Source of the DNA: Boswellia sacra
Taxonomy: Eukaryota; Streptophyta; Magnoliopsida; Sapindales; Burseraceae
Direction of reading: 5' to 3'
Assembly: GCA_013180625.2 (NCBI GenBank)
Contig: SNVD02013093.1
Coordinates: 434,001-498,000, forward strand
DNA length: 64,000 nucleotides
Of this stretch, positions 18,781-64,000 are shown piece by piece. The position numbers were made by a program, and so were the translations under genes. Every line of letters starts with the position of its first letter. The first letter of the stretch is position 1. Below the pieces are notes generated by a model. That model searched no databases. It saw nothing but the letters and a program-made list of their open reading frames with translations, and was not told the origin of the DNA.

Positions 18781-19880
18781 GATAAAATAACCAAGCCGCA
18801 AAACTATCTATTTGTTCTCAAACTAAAATGTAAAACACTACTACGTTGGACTTATAATTACTAAATTATATAAGATAATTAATAAAAATGAGCAAATTTT
18901 ACAAATATCTCATTTTCCTTTTAATAATTTGCAAAAAATTTAAACTGCGTGTGCTGTATTTGAAAAACTCAATCTTGATGGTTCGAATATATTTTATACT
19001 TGCATGTGCTGGTAGCGTTAAGGATTGCGTTGCTGGAAATAATGGTCCACATCTAACTAAAGTTTCATATCATATTTTGTTTTATTTTATTTCTTTTAAC
19101 CTGCATTTACTTAGACTCGAAGCTAACAGAGTATTGAGGCATAGCAGATTGAGAACGGCTGCTAGAAATCATAGACATTTTGTTTTGTAATAAATACATA
19201 CTGTCTTGTGAAAATTGGTAGATGGTTTTTAAGTTCTGATTTACATCTAACTTCCAGGACGAATGAGATAATTTATTAGATGTTAAGGTCCTTGTTGGTT
19301 TCGAGTTTATCCTGTGTTTTCATAATTCAGCAATCGACAAATTTTGTGAAAATTTTTTGTATTAATATATTTTGAGTGATTGCAAATCTTTTTTATGCTT
19401 GTTATTAGATTTGGAGTAGCGTTTGGACATGTCATTATTTTGATGGCTTATTATTTACTAATTTGTTAGATATTTTGGACATTTTATTAATTTGATAATC
19501 ATAGATTCATGGTTGGATAGGTTATTAGATGAAGCAATTTAATTTCTCACGGCCTAAAACATATTCAAGACTTTAAATGGTTTAAATTTATGCCAATGAG
19601 CCTTATTTTATATATAAAGTAGCCTTTAAATCATATATGAGCCTAATGGAGACATTGTAATTAAAAAAAAAAAAAAAAACTTGAAAATGGCCTGATGGAA
19701 ACATTTTTAAATAATTAAAAAAAACTGTGAAAATGGGCTTTATTCATTTATTTTTCCTTCAAATCGAAACAAGCCCTTAAAACCCCTAAAACCTCAAATC
19801 CCTGTATAATCCTTATCTACTGTCTCTGCAAAGTTAAAAGCCAAAAGCAGAAGCAGGTTCATGTTCATATTTGGTTTCAG

Positions 19881-22800
19881 ATGAAAGCTTTGAGAGGTTT
19901 AAGAGCACTCACATCGTTCCCTTCAAAAGCCCATCTCAACCTACGATTGTATTCGGCACAGCCTCAGCAAATCCACAATGAGCATGAGAACGAGAACGAG
20001 AACGACAGTGATTCGTCAGTTTTTGATAGTTCCCATTACACAGTAGCATTACCGACCCTGGAAAAGCAAGAGTATACCTGGGATGAGAAATACAGAGAGA
20101 GAGCCGACCAAGTAGTTTTTGGAAAAGAGACCCAGAAAGGGAAGCTGAGAATATTCCATGAAGAAGAAGAAGAGAGGAAGAATAGAGCTCTCGCAAGGGC
20201 ACTGCTTCAGGCTGCTTTAGATAGAGAAGAAGAGCAAGAAGAAGAGGTCAAAGAGGAAGACCAGAAATCACTTTCTGTTGGGATTATTGGTGCACCCAAT
20301 GCCGGAAAGTCTGCCCTCACTAATTACTTGGTTTGTTTCTTTGCTCTCAATTGCCAAGAGGCTCCAACCACCTTAAATCCTAGGGTGTCATGTTATTTGT
20401 TTCAAATAAATAGCCTATTGAGGACTTGTATACTTGTTTTCCTATGTTTCGTTGTTGGTGTCTGAATTGCAATTATCAATAGGTGTATTAATTTATATCA
20501 ATATTTTTTATTTATTTATTATTATTTTTTCACACGGACTTGCTTTTATGTTTCTTTGTACAAAAGACATCTAAACTTTTCTGAGGAGTGTCACATACTT
20601 GTCATATTCTATTAATCAAGTTTCATTTTGAAAATTTTGGTCTCTGCTCCTAAATTTCACTAAGAATGTTTAAGGAGACGTCTCTCAAGTTTCTGTCTTC
20701 TATGGGTGGTTAGAGATGCTTCCACTTTCTTCTGGCATATCATGTTTTGTATAGTATGTCAGATATAATTATTGAGAATTTTTTGCTGGAAACTTCAACG
20801 ATGTATGACCATAATAGTGGTCTGATGATGACAATTGCTTTGTTATAGGTTGGGACCAAGGTTGCTGCTGTTTCACGGAAGACAAATACAACTACTCATG
20901 AAGTGTTAGGAGTGATGACAAAGGGGCAAACTCAAATTGTATGTTTTTTTTTTTTTTTTTTATAATTTACTCGGTTTTATTTATCTGAGATGTGTGTGAC
21001 CTGTCTTTTGTATTGGAGGGTCAACACCATCGTAATATTGATAGAATATTGGTAGTATGATTAAATTCTGAAAATATTTTGTCACAAATTTTTTGTCGTT
21101 TGACTAAAATTGATGCAGAGCAATTATGATCAGTTATCAAACTATTAAACCACCTTAGTGGTTTAGCTGAAGTATTAGACAAGCATGCTTGAGGCAACTC
21201 AAGAAACTAAAATATCTAGACAGAAAGTTGATGACAATATGAATTAAGCCCTTAAAAGTTTCTTAGAAGTACCAAAAGTCGGTCTAGGGAGGAGAAACTG
21301 AACTTCTAGTACCACAATCTTGGCAAGCTCCTATTAATAAAATAAATACAAGAATACGCCTGAAACAAAATCCTGCTTATTCTTCTCTCTTTCCACATTT
21401 GCATCATCAAACTGAACAAAGTGGAACTGCTTTCTGAGCTATTGAGTTATCGCCTCTGATGAATCTTCTTTTCCAAAAGGCAACCAAATTACCACTGTTC
21501 ACTTTTGTGATCACAAATTGTGCAATGACAAAGGATATGGTCCAACTTTTCCACATCTGATTACGTATATAGCACTTAAGTAACAATAACATTTCCCTTT
21601 TCGAGAATAAGACCTGAAGCAGCATTTGTATAAAATAGATGAAGCTTTTTTTTTAAAATAAATCTTGGATTTAAATCATTTTATTATAACAAGTGAAATT
21701 GATCAAACTTTATAGTCGCATTTGTTTACAGTTCAATTTTTTAGGTCTTCTATGTAAATTTAGCTTTATTTATGGTTTCTCTTTTCAAATAGAAAGAAGA
21801 AAATAGTGGTGCATGTATTTCTGAGATTTCATATCCTAGATAATTTTGGAAGAATATAGATTTCTGATAGGCCTCCAGTAGATTCACATATACTAGGTGA
21901 CACAACAGGCGTGAAGCATTGAAGATATAAGGGCAATCAAGGGCAGAATGGAGAAATTGCTTTTATAATTCTGTTATGCTTTTCTGTCTTTTATAATTCT
22001 GTTATGCTTGGCTGTCAATTGTTGGTTATGTTTTGGGGAGGGAAAATGTTAGTTAGGGAATATATAGAGGGAGGGAAAGAGAGAGAGGGGAGGAACATTT
22101 TTGTAACTCAGTGAGAATTATTTTCTCTTGGGAGAGAGGCAGGGCTCTCGAATCTCCTGCCAATCAGCTACCTGTCTTTGTTATTTTTTTTCTGATTTGT
22201 TCTTTCAATATAGAAACGGAGTGCAGTTAGCTTTCTATTTCAGTTTCGGTCAATCCAATTGTGTGTGCATTCAGTGTGTGTGTGAGTGAGAAAACCAGGA
22301 TCCTATCAAATTGGTATCAAAGCAGTAAGATCTTGAATGGCTAAGATAACGGAAGCAAGAATGGAGGTGTTAGAGGAAAGACTTACTCAATTCCAGGAAG
22401 TTATCGGAGTGGTTAAAGAAGGACTGTCCAGGGTTCCAGTCCTGGAGCAGAAGGTGGCGGCCATACTAGAGTGTTTGTAGAGGTTGGCGAAGGTTAACGA
22501 GAGCGGTACAATAGCTTCGTCGTTGGGAGCCAAGCAAAAATCATCGACAGGGAAGAACAGAGAGGGTACTTACCTCCCTGCGTCGTTGTCCAGACAGAAG
22601 GCACCGATGGAGGGAAACGAAGGAGGATCGACTCCTTACATCGCGGGAGGAGGGAAAATCGATGGCTCAGCGAGAGGCGAGATCAGAACCCGTCGGGTCG
22701 AGATGGCGGTGTTCCAGGCCACTTTGGAACGATCGGGCGCTAGTTCATCAGTGCCGCCATCTACGCCTAGGAGCTACCACGTCAGCGAAACCTACGGGGG

Positions 22801-25800
22801 AGATAACAGACTGCAGCGACAACTGCAGATGCCGCTGTTTGACAGAAGCAATCCTGATGGGTGGGTCTTCAAGGCGAGAGGTACTTTCTCCCTCAATCGC
22901 ATGACGGACACGGAAAAAAAAGAGGAGTCGGCGGTGAGTTTTGACGGCCAAGCCCTAGCCTGGTTCCAGTGGAAGGATCGACGCCGGCTGATACGTCACT
23001 GGGAGGAGCTGAAGGCTCTGTTACTGACCCGATTTCGGTTGAAGCAGGAAGGAACCAATTTTGAGAAATATTTGGCGTTAAGGGATAGTGGAACAGTGAG
23101 AGAATATCGAAGACAGAGCGGAATAGTGAGAGGAGATCGGAGGCAGTTTGAGACCCTTGTATCGTCTCTTCACGGCGTCGCTGAGGAGGTTCTGGAGGAA
23201 ACTTTCGTAAACGTACTAAAACCAGAGGTGGAGGCTGAGTTCAGACTGCTGCAACCTCATGGGCTGGGCCGGATAATGCAGCTGGCCCAACCAATTCAAC
23301 ACCAGAACTTGGCCTTGAGAAATTGCATGCTCAACTTTAACATGCAGCTTGTAGAGACAGGACTGGAGAATGATTTTGTCCTGGCTTTAGTTGTTTTCTC
23401 TCTGCAGTATATTCGAGTCAACCATGAGTACTGGAAATATAAGGTGAAGCATGTTTGATGGAAAGTAACATTGAAGGTTCTGGAAGTGATGAAAACATGC
23501 ATTATGTCAACCTTGTGGTCGGGGAAATTAGGTGAGGTCATCAGGAGTATGCTACTCTGTGATTCTTCCATCCACAACACACTCTTTTGGATTGTTTATA
23601 CAACTACAGAAGCCTTAGAGAAACTTTATGTCATCCGCACCTTTGACTTGATGGAAATTGAAGATTTAAGGCATTCTGTTGATTGCATGCTGCGGTCGAT
23701 AGAAAATGAAGATCTGTTTGTTGCTTCTGCGAATCTTCTCACTGCAGCTGCATATTATCAGCCTGTTTTTCTTATTGCTTTATTTTGTGAAAAAGATTAC
23801 AGGGAGGCTCAACCTAGTAATGGTGATGGTGCAAAGCATCCAACAAATGAAGCTTCCTTAGGGATGCTGAGGTCCAAAAAATCAAGTCTGGTAGATACAC
23901 TTAGGCAGTATATCGAAAGATCTGATGACCTTATTAATAGCAATCCTCACATACTGCTGTACCTACTTAACTTTCTAAAGGCATTGTGGCAAGGGGCTGG
24001 ACACTACACAACTATTTTGGAGTGGCTAAACAGCTTTGGAATGTTGACTTTGGAGTGGTTGAAAAGCTCTGGAATGTTGTGGAAACAACTGTCCAACTCA
24101 GTTTCAGCAATTTCTAAATTGCAATTTCCTGAACGTGAAAATATGACAGAAATGGAGGCTTTGAGAATCTATGGTCGGACTCATGGAAATGTTGATTTAG
24201 ATGACTATGCTGAGGAGTTAATGATTGATCTTGAATTGTCCAAGACGGTTGCTAATAAAGTCCCTACGCCACCACCATTGGTCCACTATGGAAATAACTT
24301 TACAACTTTTCCCATGATGGAGAAGTTGCTGGAGGAACGGGAAGCTATACTAGGTGAATTAAAACAAAATTTGAAGGCGGCACAAGACAACATGAAGGGA
24401 GTGGCAGAGGACCTGGAGTTGATAGCTAAACCAGAAAGAGTGTTGAGTGAATGCCACAAGAAGGAAGAATCGGGAACTAAACCTGGGGTCTTAATCGAAT
24501 GGAGAAGCTTATTCGATTTTGAGGCTACTTGGGAACAACCTGACTTAATCCAGAATCAATTTCCTACTCTTCACCTTGAGGACAAGGTGAAAGTTGGGCG
24601 GGGGGTAATGATAGGCCTCCAGTAGATTCACATATTCTAGGTGACACAACAGGCGTGAAGCATTGAAGATATAAGGGCAATCAAGGGCAGAATGGAGAAA
24701 TTGCTTTTATAATTCTGTTATGCTTTTCTGTCTTTTATAATTCTGTTATGCTTGGCTGTCAATTGTTGGTTATGTTTTGGGGAGGGAAAATGTTAGTTAG
24801 GGAATATATATAGGGAGGGAAAGAGAGAGAGGGGAGGAACATTTTTGTAACTCAGTGAGAATTATTTTCTCTTGGGAGAGAGGCAGGGCTCTCGAATCTC
24901 CTGCCAATCAGCTACCTATCTTTGTTATTTTTTTTCTGATTTGTTCTTTCAATATAGAAACGGAGTGCAGTTAGCTTTCTATTTCAGTTTCGGTCAATCC
25001 AATTGTGTGTGCATTCAGTGTGTGTGTGAGTGAGAAAACCAGGATCCTATCAATTTCTCCATGAATACTCAAAATACTTTTTTGGGCCTAATTCAAAAGA
25101 AACTTGGAACTAGGAAATTGTTTATCAGTTTTATCTGACATAATATCTCTTGTAGAGGTTTGAGTTTGAAGATTTGGTTAAGGTTAAACAATAAATAAAT
25201 AATTTTACCCTTCTTTAAATATTTTTGCTAGTTTTTTCTGGGAACCTTTGTACTAATTTCAACTACGTGATATAGTGCTTTTTTGATACCCCTGGACTTA
25301 TGCTGAATAAAAGCGGGCAGCCTTACAAAGATATTAAGGTTCGTGTGGAAAGTGCCTGGAGCTCAGTCAATCTATTTGAGGTGCTGATGGTTATTTTTGA
25401 TGCCCATAGACATCTTACCAGGTCAGTATGATAGTGATTTAGTTTGATTAGGTTTAATTTTTCTGCTAAATCTTTCTCATAGAACCATTGTCTATCTTTC
25501 TTTTTAGCTTTTACTTTTTGGAACATTTTCACATCGATTCAATTAATATGCGGATAATTGCAATGGCCCTATAAGGTTTACATAGTCAAGTCATTGTGGT
25601 TTCAGAACATGAACCACCCTTCCTTACAGACCTGGCATGTGGCTCAGCCGCCTCCTGTCCTGCTTTATGTGCATATAATTTAATTAATGTTGAATAACAG
25701 TTTCCTATATTAATAATAAATAATTTTGAACTGCACTTCATTTTTGAAGAATTTTCTAGTTATCTACTTCCTTACAGGCTTGCTTGGGCCTGTGAACCTA

Positions 25801-33235: not shown

Positions 33236-36200
33236 ATGGCTATTTTTTTCTTAATTTTGGAATATTTGGATAGTGAGTATCCAATAGGAGATGTAGACCC
33301 TGACACAATTAGTTTAATAGGGTTGTTTCAAGCTGCTTTGTATCATTGCAAATTAGAGGTTGTAGATCATACAGATGTTAATTTCTTTGTCAGTTTACCA
33401 TGGAATGGACAGAAATATCTCATTGACAGTGACTGTAAGTTCTTGCAGTTGTTACATATGTATGGAGTTAATGGTTTGACTGAATTAAAAATCACAGTTG
33501 AGATTATTACCCACCATATTGACCCACTAGCAAAGATGTCACCCGATGACTTAAGAGGAAATGAGCCACCACAGATAGAGTTGTCAGGTGTTGTAATGAA
33601 TTCAAAAAATGAGAATGAAACTGAGTTGCCTAACCTTGAAAACTTAGAAAAAAATCCAGTAAATGAACCAACAAGTGGTGATTTATCCCCTACAAGGCTT
33701 GAAAGAGTTAGTGAGGTTGAAACTGAGTTGCCCAACTTAGTACAAAATGCTTTTGTAGAACCATCATCTACTGAGTTACCTGTTGCATGTGAGAAAGAAG
33801 TTAATGAGCATGATAATCAATTGCCCAACTTAGAAACCAATGCAGAGACTCATCCTATAGAAGTTGAGGTGCCTAATGTAGGTGAAACTGAGTTATCTAA
33901 CATTAATCCAAATGAAAATATGAGTGAATGGTCAGTAGGACAGTCAATAGGGCATAGTGAGTATGACATAGATACTGACTCTGATACAGATTATAGGCCA
34001 GAAGATAGTATAGAGTCTCAACATGATGATGCAGGGGTAGACAGTGGTAGTGGGAGTAGTGGTGAAGAGGAGTCAGCTGATGATAGCTCCCATTACCAAA
34101 GTGATGGTGAGAATTTTAAAAAACTAGTTAGTGGTTCAGATGAAGAAGAAGTAGGTAGTGCTAGAATGGCAAGGGTAGACAGGCAAAATTTATTTACTAA
34201 GGGCTTAGATGGTGAGATTATATTGAGGGTGGGGCAAACTTTTGATAATCTGAACCATTTTTGACAAGTACTAAGAAATTACTCAATTAGGAATGGTACA
34301 AAGCTTAAAAGAGTGAAAAATGAGAGGGATAGAATTACTTGTAAGTGTGCTACACAAGAATGCCCTTGGAGGATTCATGCCTCAAAAACTCAGGACCTTG
34401 TAACATTCCAAATCAAGACCTATTATCCTAAACATAAATGCTCAAAGGTACCTGACACCCCTGAGTGCACCTATACTTGGATTGCTAAAAAATATAAGGA
34501 TCATTTCAGAGAAAATCCAAACTTAGGTGTAGACTAGTTAGAGAAAGATTTGAAGAGAAGATTTGGCCTTGAACCTTCAAAATAGAAACTGTATAGGGCT
34601 AGAATGCATGCTCTTCAAATCATAAGTGAACACCATCAGAAAGCCCTTAATTTATTACATAAATATGCAAATATTGTCCAGCTTACAAACCCAGTGTCTA
34701 CTGCCTATGTGAGGGCAGATGCTGAAATGATATCTGCTTCACCAAAATTTCAGGGCTTTTTTATTAGTTTTCCTGCTCAGAGGAAAGGATTTGTTGAGGG
34801 TTGCAGGCCTTTTATTGGTGTAGATGGGTGTCACCTCAAGGGTCCACTAGGAAGGGTGCTTTTAGCTGCTGTGTCAATTGATGCCAACAATGGTATGTTC
34901 CCTCTAGCATTAGGAGTTTGTGAGGTGGAGTGTACATCAACTTGGAATTGGTTTCTTCAATTATTAGGAGAACACATAGGAGGGGTTGATGGATGTGGAC
35001 TGCCTATGACTTTCATGAGTGATAGGCAAAAGGGGATTTTTAATGCTTTAAATGAACAATGGCCATATGCATCATCAAGGTTTTGTGGTAAACACTTGTA
35101 TGATAATTTCAAGAAAGGACACAGTGGACCAGGTTTGCAATTATTATTCTGGAGGGCATGCAAGGCAGCCAATATCCTTGACTTTAAAACTGCCATGAAG
35201 GAAATCAAAGATGTAGACCCAGGTGCTTTTGACTATTTGTCAAAGATTCCTATCACCAGTTGGAGTAGACATGCGTTTGACGAAAGTTGACCATGTTACA
35301 AACAACATTACAGAGTCATTCAACTCCTGGATCAATAGACATAGAAGTCAAACTTACCTGAGCATGCTAGAGGACATCAGAAGGAAAATAATGAAGAGGA
35401 TGCAAAAAAAGTAAGCAACTTTTTTATTCCAATAGTGTACACTGTTTTCTTAATACTTTGTCATTTTATGTCATTTTTATTATTTTGTTCATTTTTTAAT
35501 TTAATTAACAGGTTTAGAGAATGCATGAGGTGGCATGGTGATGTGGGTCCCAAGATCATAACCATTGTTAATGAGAGGGGGAAATCAAGTAGAGTGATGG
35601 AGGTGATGTGGTGTGGAGATTTGGAATTTGAAGTGGTTAACAGAGGGAGGGTGTATATTGTGAGGTTAAATGAGAGATTTTGCTCATGTGGACTATTTCA
35701 AATATCTGGAATCCCTTTTACACATGCAATTGCTGCTGCAAATGAGAGGAGGATTGATGTACATCAATTTGTAGATAAGATATTGTCAAGGGATAGGCAT
35801 ATAGCATCATTACAACCTTTACATAAATCCAATTCCAAATCAAAGTGAATGGCCAGAGGTGACTTGCAATAACTTAGAGGCTCCCAAGATCAGAACCGAA
35901 ACAGGCAGGCCAAAGAAAGCAAGGAAGAGGGCAACAGATGAACCCAGCCCATCAGGCTGTCCTTTGTTTACAATGAGGTGCACAAATTGTGGTGGCTACA
36001 ACCATAATAAAAGGAGTTGCAAGTCTACCCCACAGCCAAAAAAGAAAAAGGTTATAAACTCTGTTGCTTACATTAAAGTTTTTCCTTTAATTCACTTTAC
36101 ATTCTATCCATTTTGCTAACTACTTCTTTTAATAACTTGATAATGTTTAAGGCTCGAACCTCCTCATCTCAGCAAGGTTTAGTTTCCTTATCCTAACAAC

Positions 36201-60077: not shown

Positions 60078-61688
60078 TACGTTTGAATTTGATGGAGAAG
60101 TAGAAGAAGAAAATGAGAGGGAGGACTTGGGCTTTGTAACTGCTTCCTTTATTAAAGAAATTTCCAACTATATAATAGTCTTCCAATGTTGAAAAGAATA
60201 CAAACAATGCTAAGAATTAGGAAAACAAAAATGCCCCACTAACGCTAAAGACCAACACTTCATAGGTAAACACAACTATCCTATTAAAACTAAAGATCAA
60301 TACTTCATGGATTTATTAAATGGAACAAACAAATTAACTATGGTACACTCCACGATCTCCACTTCCAACTAGTGTAGTAAAGTATGGAAATCAATTGCTT
60401 TGCAAGGTTTCATGCGAAATGGTTGGCTCATTTTCTTTTGTAATTGATTTCACTCCTCGATTAGCCGAGCGGCTCCTATTGTATCCGCCAAGGTGCTAGG
60501 TTGTTTAATTTTCACATCTAGGCAAATGTCATCTTGAAGTCTTGTCATAAAAAAACCAATGAGAAAATTTTCAAGTAGGCCATCAACTTGGTGGGAAATG
60601 CCTTGATCTTTCTTTGTCTCAAACCCCATAGCCCTATAATAATGGTAGAGTAAGGGCCCCCCCAAAGTGGAATTGACCGGTGGTGGTTGGTCGAAACTCC
60701 AAGAGGTATCCACTCCATTCTCAAGGAATCGTATGTGAGACTTTTGCGTTTCGAAAGTTTCCTGGTAAGCTGCTATCGTTGAGGTTTGTTTAAGTCGAGT
60801 TAGAGCTTCCGATGGGTCTTCATAATAGGTTGGACCAAAATGGAGAAGGATAACTTTGGTGAACTCATCCCATATAAGTGGTTCACGAAATTTCATCAAC
60901 CACTAGTGCCACTGTAGGGTGATGCCTTCTAGACGGAAGGATGCTAGCAAAACCTTGTTGGTCATATGCAATATCTTTGAAATCAAAATACTTTTATATT
61001 ATGTAGACTTAACCAATTGGGTCTTTGCCTTCAAACTTTGGAAAGGATTTTGATGTGTTGATAATGTTAGTCATTATTGGTATTAGAATGACTAGCATTT
61101 GGCGAATGTGAAGATTCTCAGGACAAATGGGTTGATTTTGGGGTGGCTAATATGTGGACTCCAGTAGGCTCGTAATCTTTGAAGCTCAATTAATACCGTT
61201 TGTAGAGTAGCGTTAATCTAATCGAAGCTTCACTCGTGTCATGCTAAGATTTTATTGACCACATTGTGGAATTCCACATTTGTTTTATTGTAAGTTTCTA
61301 TTGTCGGAACCTAGCTTTGATACCACCAATGCGTATGAATTTGATAGAGAAAAAGAAGAGGAAAATAAAAGGGAGGATTTGGGCTTCTTAGCTACTTTTA
61401 TTGAAGATATTTTTGACTATATATAATAGTCTTACAATGCTGGAAAGAATAAGAAACAATGCTAAGAAATTGGACAACACAACTATGCCACTAAAGCTAA
61501 AGCTCAACACTTCATGATAAACGCCACTACCCTACTAAAGCTAAAGATCAATACTTCATGAGCTTATTAAATGGAACAAAAAAACAAACTAAACTAGACC
61601 AAGTATCCACGTTCTTCACTTCTAGCTAGTGCAGTAGAGTATGGAAATCGGTTGCTTGGCAAGGCTCTGTGAATGATGGCTCGTATCA
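60078..61688 (-). mobile_element. Deleted Ty3/gypsy-type retroelement
   Basis: Two diverged LTRs, about 60078-60430 and 61330-61688, share most of their length; both include the AATAGTCTTCCAATG / AATAGTCTTACAATG block and the AGTATGGAAATC block. The primer-binding site on the minus strand, TGGTATCAAAGC (61325-61314), abuts the right LTR, so that one is the 5' LTR. Only a gag segment lies between them. The target duplication is not clear. The visibly diverged LTRs make it much older than the element in ERG. Confidence 0.75.
60450..60899 (-). pseudogene. Retrotransposon gag fragment
   Basis: 149 codons with the gypsy gag pattern LIWDEFTKVILLHFGPTYYE, LTRLKQTSTIAAYQETFE, and LLENFLIGFFMTRLQDDICL followed by DVKIKQPSTLADTIGAARL. 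It is truncated at both ends relative to a full gag and sits directly against the 3' LTR. No protease or pol follows. Confidence 0.8.
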
Positions 61689-62959: not shown

Positions 62960-63854
62960 TCAAGCCCATTTTAGTTGGGTGTGCAAATAGGATTGTAATT
63001 GGCCATTTGAAATTTGTCTAGAACTTCTCCCACATATTTCTTTTAAGAAATAAAAATTCCAGCAATAGATTGCTTTAATACTATGAAAATAATGCATCAT
63101 TCCAAGATCAGACATATCAAATTCAACTATCATAGACTTATTAAATTTTTTAAACATGGCACTATCATTTCCAGTGAAAATAAGATCATCTACATAAAAG
63201 CACACAATGGGCGTCTTTCCCATCTCTAATTTTTATAAAACAAGTATGCTCATATAGACATTTCTTTAAATCCCTCCTTGAAAAAATAAACATCTATATG
63301 ACTATCCCAAGCTATTGAAGCATGTTTTAGTCCATATAGTGGCTTTTTTAATTTATACATCTTATGCTCACTTTCAAGCTTCACATAACCAAGAGATTCA
63401 TCAATAAATACCAGTTCTTATAAATCTCCATGCAGGAAAGCTGATTTCATGTCCAAGTGGAAGATAGGCCATGAGTTTTGAGCTGTAAAGCAATCAATAA
63501 TCAGATTGTATCATTTCGTGCAAAATCCATGTTAAACTCTTGCTTATAGCCTTTAGCTACTAAGTTATATATATATATATATATATATGCCTTGTACTTG
63601 TTAGCCTCTCCATTCTTCTTTAATCTTGTCTTGTACACCCACTTGACGTCAATTATCTTATGCCCTCTTGGAAGATTAGTCAACTCCCCAGTGTTGTTCC
63701 ATTCAACAAATACAATTTTTTCGTCCATTACCTTTTGCCATTTTGGTTCTTTGATAGTCTCTTCAAAAGTTGTAGGATCACAATTGGAAAATGGAGCAAA
63801 ATGTGTAAGTGGGTCCTCAGATTGGTCAATTTTAGTCACCTCATAGTTAGTCAT
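62960..63854 (-). pseudogene. Copia reverse transcriptase, frameshifted
   Basis: From 63854 leftward: EETIKEPKWQKVMDEKIVFV, LTNLPRGHKIIDVKWVYKTR, then LVAKGYKQEFNMDFA. In other frames come a HLDMKSAFLHGDL-like block, KLKKPLYGLKHASIAWDSHI, and the catalytic FYVDDLIFTGND (about 63198-63163), then EFDMSDLGMMHYF. Between KYKA and LVAKG a (TA)n run has replaced one Arg codon. Stops and frameshifts show that it is inactive. Confidence 0.85.
63566..63588 (+). repeat. (TA)n microsatellite inside the copia coding region
   Basis: Eleven TA units, located exactly where the conserved KYKARLVAKG codons should be. On the coding strand it reads as alternating Tyr and Ile. Confidence 0.9.
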
Positions 63855-64000
63855 CCATGCAAGACTTTTTCTAACATGTTGTGGCTATTATTCATTATCT
63901 ATTTAAGCTGCAGTTGGACTTTGAGCATCTATTGGAACACTTTGAGTGATTGTTGGCTGTTGCACATTCTCCATAGGTTGTTGCCTTTTCTAATCATTTT

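Follow-up and report, generated by a model that had tools for sequence, protein, structure and literature searches.

We analysed a 64,000-nucleotide stretch of the Boswellia sacra genome (assembly GCA_013180625.2, contig SNVD02013093.1, positions 434,001 to 498,000 of the forward strand), hereafter the window, in which positions 21865-25052 hold a complete long terminal repeat (LTR) retrotransposon with TG..CA ends and, between its LTRs, intron-free coding sequence of the host nucleoporin gene NUP188. A first-pass annotation of the same letters had proposed 444-bp LTRs, a 5-bp duplication, a primer site, a gypsy gag up to about 23320, a NUP188 block and an integrase/chromodomain tail. As listed in Table 1, the two LTRs do measure 444 bp each, with three mismatches and no gaps between them, both ATTTC copies are in place, and directly 3' of the 5' LTR stands a primer-site-like stretch, TGGTATCAAAGCAG, presumably of the initiator-Met tRNA type. 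The gag was recovered above its cut-off (PF03732, E=1.1e-5, 26 bits versus 24.1) and gives way to NUP188 at about 23323. The tail was upheld in part: about 24278-24601 is integrase and chromodomain sequence, the chromodomain scoring under its cut-off (PF00385, E=1.3e-4, 22.3 bits versus 25.1) in a position that fits, whereas the integrase label was dropped for 24155-24277, which matches DYW-type PPR pieces of related elements; taken alone, this fragment had no match in the PDB. A domain search of the element found no protease, reverse transcriptase, RNase H or integrase core, and because a complete pol was not found we regard it as non-autonomous. It is a gypsy-type element, probably of the chromovirus branch, with the order gag, NUP188, DYW-type PPR, integrase tail and chromodomain. 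Its own gag frame is closed by the stops given in Table 1, some sibling copies being open, and its LTR divergence of K=0.0068 corresponds to about 0.3-0.7 million years under rates that we assume to be 1.3e-8 and 4.7e-9.

Table 1. Features of the retrotransposon and of its insertion site, in window coordinates
Feature	Position	Strand	Remark
Target-site duplication, left copy	21860..21864		ATTTC
5' LTR	21865..22308	+	TG..CA
Primer-binding-site-like sequence	22312..22329	+	read from letters
gag	22337..23322	+	PF03732 profile match; premature stop at 22478
Captured NUP188 coding sequence	23323..24164	+	introns absent; premature stop at 23456
Internal NUP188 deletion join	23657..23669	+	exons 4-7 (aligned-segment numbering) partly missing; in frame
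33-bp tandem duplication within NUP188	24016..24079	+	in frame; absent from the host gene and L012-L014
NUP188/PPR join	24153..24164	+	common 12-base stretch, 11/12 identical
Captured DYW-type PPR gene fragment	24155..24277	+	comparison with relatives
Integrase C-terminal and chromodomain remnant	24278..24601 (about)	+
Polypurine-rich stretch 5' of the 3' LTR	24590..24608	+	common to the family
3' LTR	24609..25052	+
Target-site duplication, right copy	25053..25057		ATTTC
Open frame with upstream exon of interrupted GTPase gene	19731..20465	+	G1 motif
Open frame with downstream exon of interrupted GTPase gene	25276..25431	+	DTPG motif, by eye

The identity of the middle block as NUP188 can be taken as certain on its sequence. 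In two stretches it matches the nucleoporin structure 9sob_B (Nucleoporin, DUF3414) at E=8.6e-33, which excludes a chance match, and its bounds are now about 23323 to about 24164; a Pfam search of the block returned no NUP188 family. Searched against proteins, the NUP188-tail frame and the gag frame each had five matches, those of the gag frame covering 13-14% of the query, consistent with its NUP188 end. The host gene was located on contig C3708, where NUP188 proteins of other plants align exon to exon and the gene is open over the captured segment. Six pieces of the window block pair with its exons, five of them at 93-97% identity and the last, which contains an indel, at 82%. The exon edges on C3708 are bounded by GT..AG introns, and since the element exons are joined at these same edges with the introns gone, the source was a spliced mRNA. 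Related copies retain more of the gene: L012-L014 keep further NUP188 exons, with L013 and L014 holding eight of the aligned segment's exons and, in addition, nine bases of exon 6, and their join uses a donor inside exon 6, which reads as alternatively spliced mRNA.

These observations bear on capture at the DNA level, by a Pack-MULE, a Helitron or repair insertion with no RNA intermediate. In favour of such a route are the partial, intron-bearing NUP188 copies scattered over the genome (on C3831, C2572, C5772, C4363, C1284 and C5058; L023-L028), which suggest that the same gene has also been duplicated in another way. For the window element, however, it is refuted by the absence of introns, and for the elements at large it is hardly to be credited, because introns have been precisely removed, an alternative splice is preserved, and LTRs and target-site duplications (TSDs) are present; neither captured introns nor DNA-transposon ends, as in a Pack-MULE or Helitron, were found. 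In Citrus unshiu, the hypothetical protein CUMW_253080 joins an unrelated N-terminal part, which we take to be PB1/MuDR-like, to NUP188 exons, and is possibly an independent transposon capture of NUP188.

The 13 NUP188-bearing copies examined represent 12 insertions of four structural types, since L009 and L010, which are 99.4% alike over 6 kb including flanks, are one locus and were counted once. Type A comprises the window element, L009/L010 and L011. Type B (L012-L014) has the longest NUP188 part, L012 lacking the first exon that L013 and L014 keep, while NUP188 is placed after the integrase part in type C (L015, L016) and PLC precedes NUP188 in type D (L017-L020). The carriers have inserted repeatedly: simple matching TSDs flank 8 of the 12 insertions (the window element, L012-L017 and L020), a count in which those of L011, L018 and L019 were not resolved, and L009/L010 has TGGAC at its outer edges, outside a rearranged 5' LTR. 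In L009 and L010 this 5' LTR has an extra 146-bp LTR piece before or after it. LTR divergence was 0-2.7% in the 14 copies measured. An assembly artefact is excluded by the occurrence of copies on many contigs with differing flanks and TSDs.

Five sites set all 13 element copies apart from C3708, although some of these could be changes in C3708, since it is the sole host copy with data there; five further sites set 3-9 element copies apart from 6-7 host copies, and the element clade in the NUP188 tree has an ultrafast bootstrap of 89. One capture of NUP188 shared by all four types is thereby supported, short of proof. The first-pass annotation had suggested that a non-autonomous element transduced a host transcript and then transposed, and had pointed to a search for the parental gene and for sibling copies; the intron-bearing donor on C3708, the signs of a single capture, the 12 insertions, with siblings bearing TSDs of their own, and an empty paralogous site (see below) bear this out.

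To delimit the wider family, the genome was searched with a 44-base strip running across the purine tract into the LTR start, allowing up to 3 mismatches, which gave 51 matches, against none for the reversed control. Of these 3' ends 36 were examined, 13 picked for NUP188, 3 for LTR similarity and 20 blind to content; copy counts omit L032 and L033, and L034-L053 were counted without a check of full 5' LTRs. Every one of the 36 copies carries at least one host-gene piece, 32 carry at least two and 8 at least three (6 when a tentative METTL13 piece is left out), and the content-blind copies behave alike, with at least one piece in 20/20 and at least two in 17/20. Besides NUP188, we identified a PI-PLC X domain in L017 (PF00388, 1.2e-10), a malic enzyme in L036 (PF03949, 7e-82; solved malic enzymes at about 1e-63), presumably of NAD specificity, a P-class PPR in L030 (PF01535, 1.7e-17), a DYW-type PPR in L015 (1.1e-40 to a synthetic PPR-DYW structure) and a METTL13-like piece whose weak match (5wcj, E=0.023) leaves its identity tentative. 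The PPR piece behind NUP188, and relatives with PI-PLC, malic enzyme, a second PPR and possibly METTL13, go beyond what had been annotated before. The elements are about 2.7-3.3 kb long, with open stretches of up to 844 codons. To judge from these copies, the family has taken up parts of about six host genes and rearranged them, the reading frame being mostly unbroken. One relative, L033, bears pol-like frames, read by eye and broken, its LTR being 75-80% and its gag 67-70% similar. L032 (G000:C951:246792-247233) is a single LTR, 99% identical to that of the window element, with no second LTR within the 801 bases fetched.

The breadth of this cargo is relevant to whether the NUP188 segment might act as a decoy or silencer, its small RNAs repressing host NUP188. 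About 840 bp, mostly 93-97% identical to the host gene and present in 12 insertions, would favour this, and part of a report on Drosophila describes a precedent, the TART-A element, which holds a segment of the host nuclear-export gene nxf2 at 93-96% identity and for which silencing of that gene has been proposed (PMC7785250). TART-A, as described there, is however a non-LTR element with nxf2 in an untranslated region and with evidence for silencing, whereas the Boswellia element is of LTR type and known from sequence alone. Moreover, since the family bears unrelated PPR, PLC and malic enzyme genes, capture appears indiscriminate, and a silencing role of the TART-A kind would be quite improbable.

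If captured pieces were joined without regard to frame, one third of the junctions would be expected in frame by chance. Frame is kept at most of them: 29 of the 36 junction classes called by script are in frame (P=8e-9), although these classes are not independent and some are a single join split by binning; with joins grouped by hand by source pair, the mixed PPR-to-second-PPR pair being scored as out of frame and METTL-to-PPR (in frame in 1/2 copies) as in frame, the count is 17 of 20 (P=3e-6). The gag-to-NUP188 frame is kept in every copy where the join can be read, and an open stretch of at least 670 codons occurs in 10 of the 36 copies, the longest being the 844 codons given above. Were the captured pieces passive passengers, with the frame unselected and open-frame copies merely young, low LTR divergence would be expected, as found, and it would be no surprise that 26 of 36 copies lack such a stretch. 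Youth, however, accounts for few stops and not for frame-keeping at the junctions, which makes this explanation rather unlikely.

The ratio of non-synonymous to synonymous change (dN/dS) between copies was 0.23-0.71 for gag (7 pairs), 0.19 and 0.23 for protease, 0.72 and 0.75 for integrase/chromodomain, 0.82 and 1.38 for NUP188 and 0.64-1.41 for the PPR parts (5 pairs). Change is close to neutral in the parts taken from NUP188 and the PPR genes; the PLC pieces may differ from them in constraint. In our reading, the amino acids of NUP188 and PPR are little constrained, yet there is pressure for an open frame, and NUP188 function as such is probably not under selection. A Gag-NUP188 fusion might instead be a functional module that aids docking of the particle at the nuclear pore, as the gag-into-NUP188 frame kept at all readable joins and the persistence of NUP188 across four structural types could suggest. 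Near-neutral dN/dS, the different NUP188 pieces kept by different types and the existence of family members without NUP188 all speak against it, and we consider it very unlikely.

The joins themselves carry traces of how the pieces came together. Upstream, gag reads to AATTACAG and NUP188 starts exactly at an exon start, as could result if a read-through transcript was spliced or if a switch occurred at two shared bases. Downstream, the NUP188/PPR join of type A lies within the nearly identical 12-base stretch of Table 1, and in type B the host sequence ..GAAGAAGAAG and the second PPR have 7-9 bases in common. Such patterns accord with templates having been switched during reverse transcription, without being proof of it.

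We therefore favour, with a probability of roughly 0.8, a model of one spliced NUP188 capture followed by template switches, mobilisation in trans and the spread of open gag-fusion frames. A spliced NUP188 mRNA would have entered the element lineage once, when reverse transcriptase jumped to packaged host mRNAs as new templates; NUP188 would have been joined to gag at its exon edge and, downstream, via short shared sequence, to an element RNA already ending in a PPR fragment. Later switches between element RNAs, deletions at short repeats and the 33-bp duplication would then have produced the four NUP188-bearing types, presumably mobilised in trans by pol-bearing relatives. What is selected would be the open frame, either because a Gag fusion acts in cis or because open transcripts escape nonsense-mediated decay, and not NUP188 activity.

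Several observations weigh against this model, besides the non-independence of the junction classes. Among the host pieces a donor gene was located only for NUP188, and L033, the pol-bearing relative, is itself broken, with an LTR merely 75-80% similar. The NUP188-to-second-PPR join is out of frame in 6/6 copies (L012-L016, L019), types that have nonetheless spread, and further out-of-frame joins occur in L043 (two), L049, L044 and L051 (one each), those of L044 and L051 probably stemming from later frameshifts. As to constraint, dN/dS between copies is 0.06 and 0.08 for PLC, values based on 4-5 changes; that of NUP188 against the host gene spans 0.48-1.46 (9 copies), where some constraint is possible; and the constraint on gag may be inherited from autonomous lineages. 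A bolder extension of the model, to which we give somewhat less than even odds, is that the lineage shuffles exons under selection for frame: host mRNAs would repeatedly be spliced in between gag and the 3' tail, mainly open fusions would spread, and the genome would receive an ever-changing set of Gag-host fusion proteins whose host portion serves largely as translatable filler.

Capture of host genes by plant LTR elements has usually been viewed as a series of isolated accidents. Maize Bs1 is described, in part of one report, as an LTR element in which segments of plasma-membrane ATPase, xylan endohydrolase and glucanase form a chimeric gene (PMC13317346), and a section of another gives its captured sequence as exons only (PMC4717578). 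The window element resembles Bs1 in having intron-free host coding sequence between two LTRs; unlike Bs1, it belongs to a eudicot family, with 51 3' ends, in which pieces from about six host genes are arranged in numerous ways around what is left of gag, integrase and chromodomain. The same section presents GmaRetroS15, a soybean terminal-repeat retrotransposon in miniature, as a short, non-autonomous LTR element that is present in several copies, is flanked by TSDs and carries exon-only fragments of three host genes; the gene-bearing elements of this kind described there measure 1.2-1.4 kb, and a gag-fusion frame is not reported in that section (PMC4717578), in contrast to the length and the open stretches of the Boswellia family. 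A survey of maize B73 counted 425 intact LTR elements that carry gene fragments and traced these to at least 189 captures; in its relevant portion, no element is identified that combines fragments of two or more standard nuclear genes (PMC2774510), whereas nearly all Boswellia copies examined have pieces of at least two genes. At survey level, an abstract gives 672 LTR-captured genes for rice and 1,343 for sorghum (PMC3726574). In the part of the open-licence literature covered, we found neither capture of NUP188 or another plant nuclear-pore gene nor a family organised as a serial multi-gene carrier. On the sequences at hand, this is a serial, combinatorial and mostly frame-keeping carrier family of host genes. 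With nested, datable intermediates and the NUP188 donor in one genome, the order of capture, recombination and deletion steps can be approached; the frame bias makes it testable whether, and why, selection acts on the frame of a non-autonomous element; and fusions that have been captured and have spread offer material from which new genes, or small RNAs directed at the donor genes, can arise.

Given a frame with a G1 motif upstream and, downstream, exons in which DTPG and NKVD were read by eye, the gene that hosts the window element is a GTPase gene of the Era/Der type, and the insertion lies in one of its introns. The upstream frame has Der as its best NCBIfam match (E=2e-7), followed by Era (E=3e-4), all under their cut-offs; we take the gene to be ERG. 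On C4120 a paralogous GTPase locus lacks the element, and the joined flanks of the insertion align to it at 85% over 2409 columns, with a 22-column gap at the insertion site itself. A BBX32 protein encoded in the window shows 67% identity to Pistacia, 61% to Melia and 58% to Xanthoceras, by which the plant probably belongs to the Sapindales. Elsewhere in the window, open frames at 33236-35290 resemble a MULE transposase region, and the minus strand holds retrotransposon-like fragments at 60450-60902 and 63501-63884, gag-like and copia-like, all read by eye.

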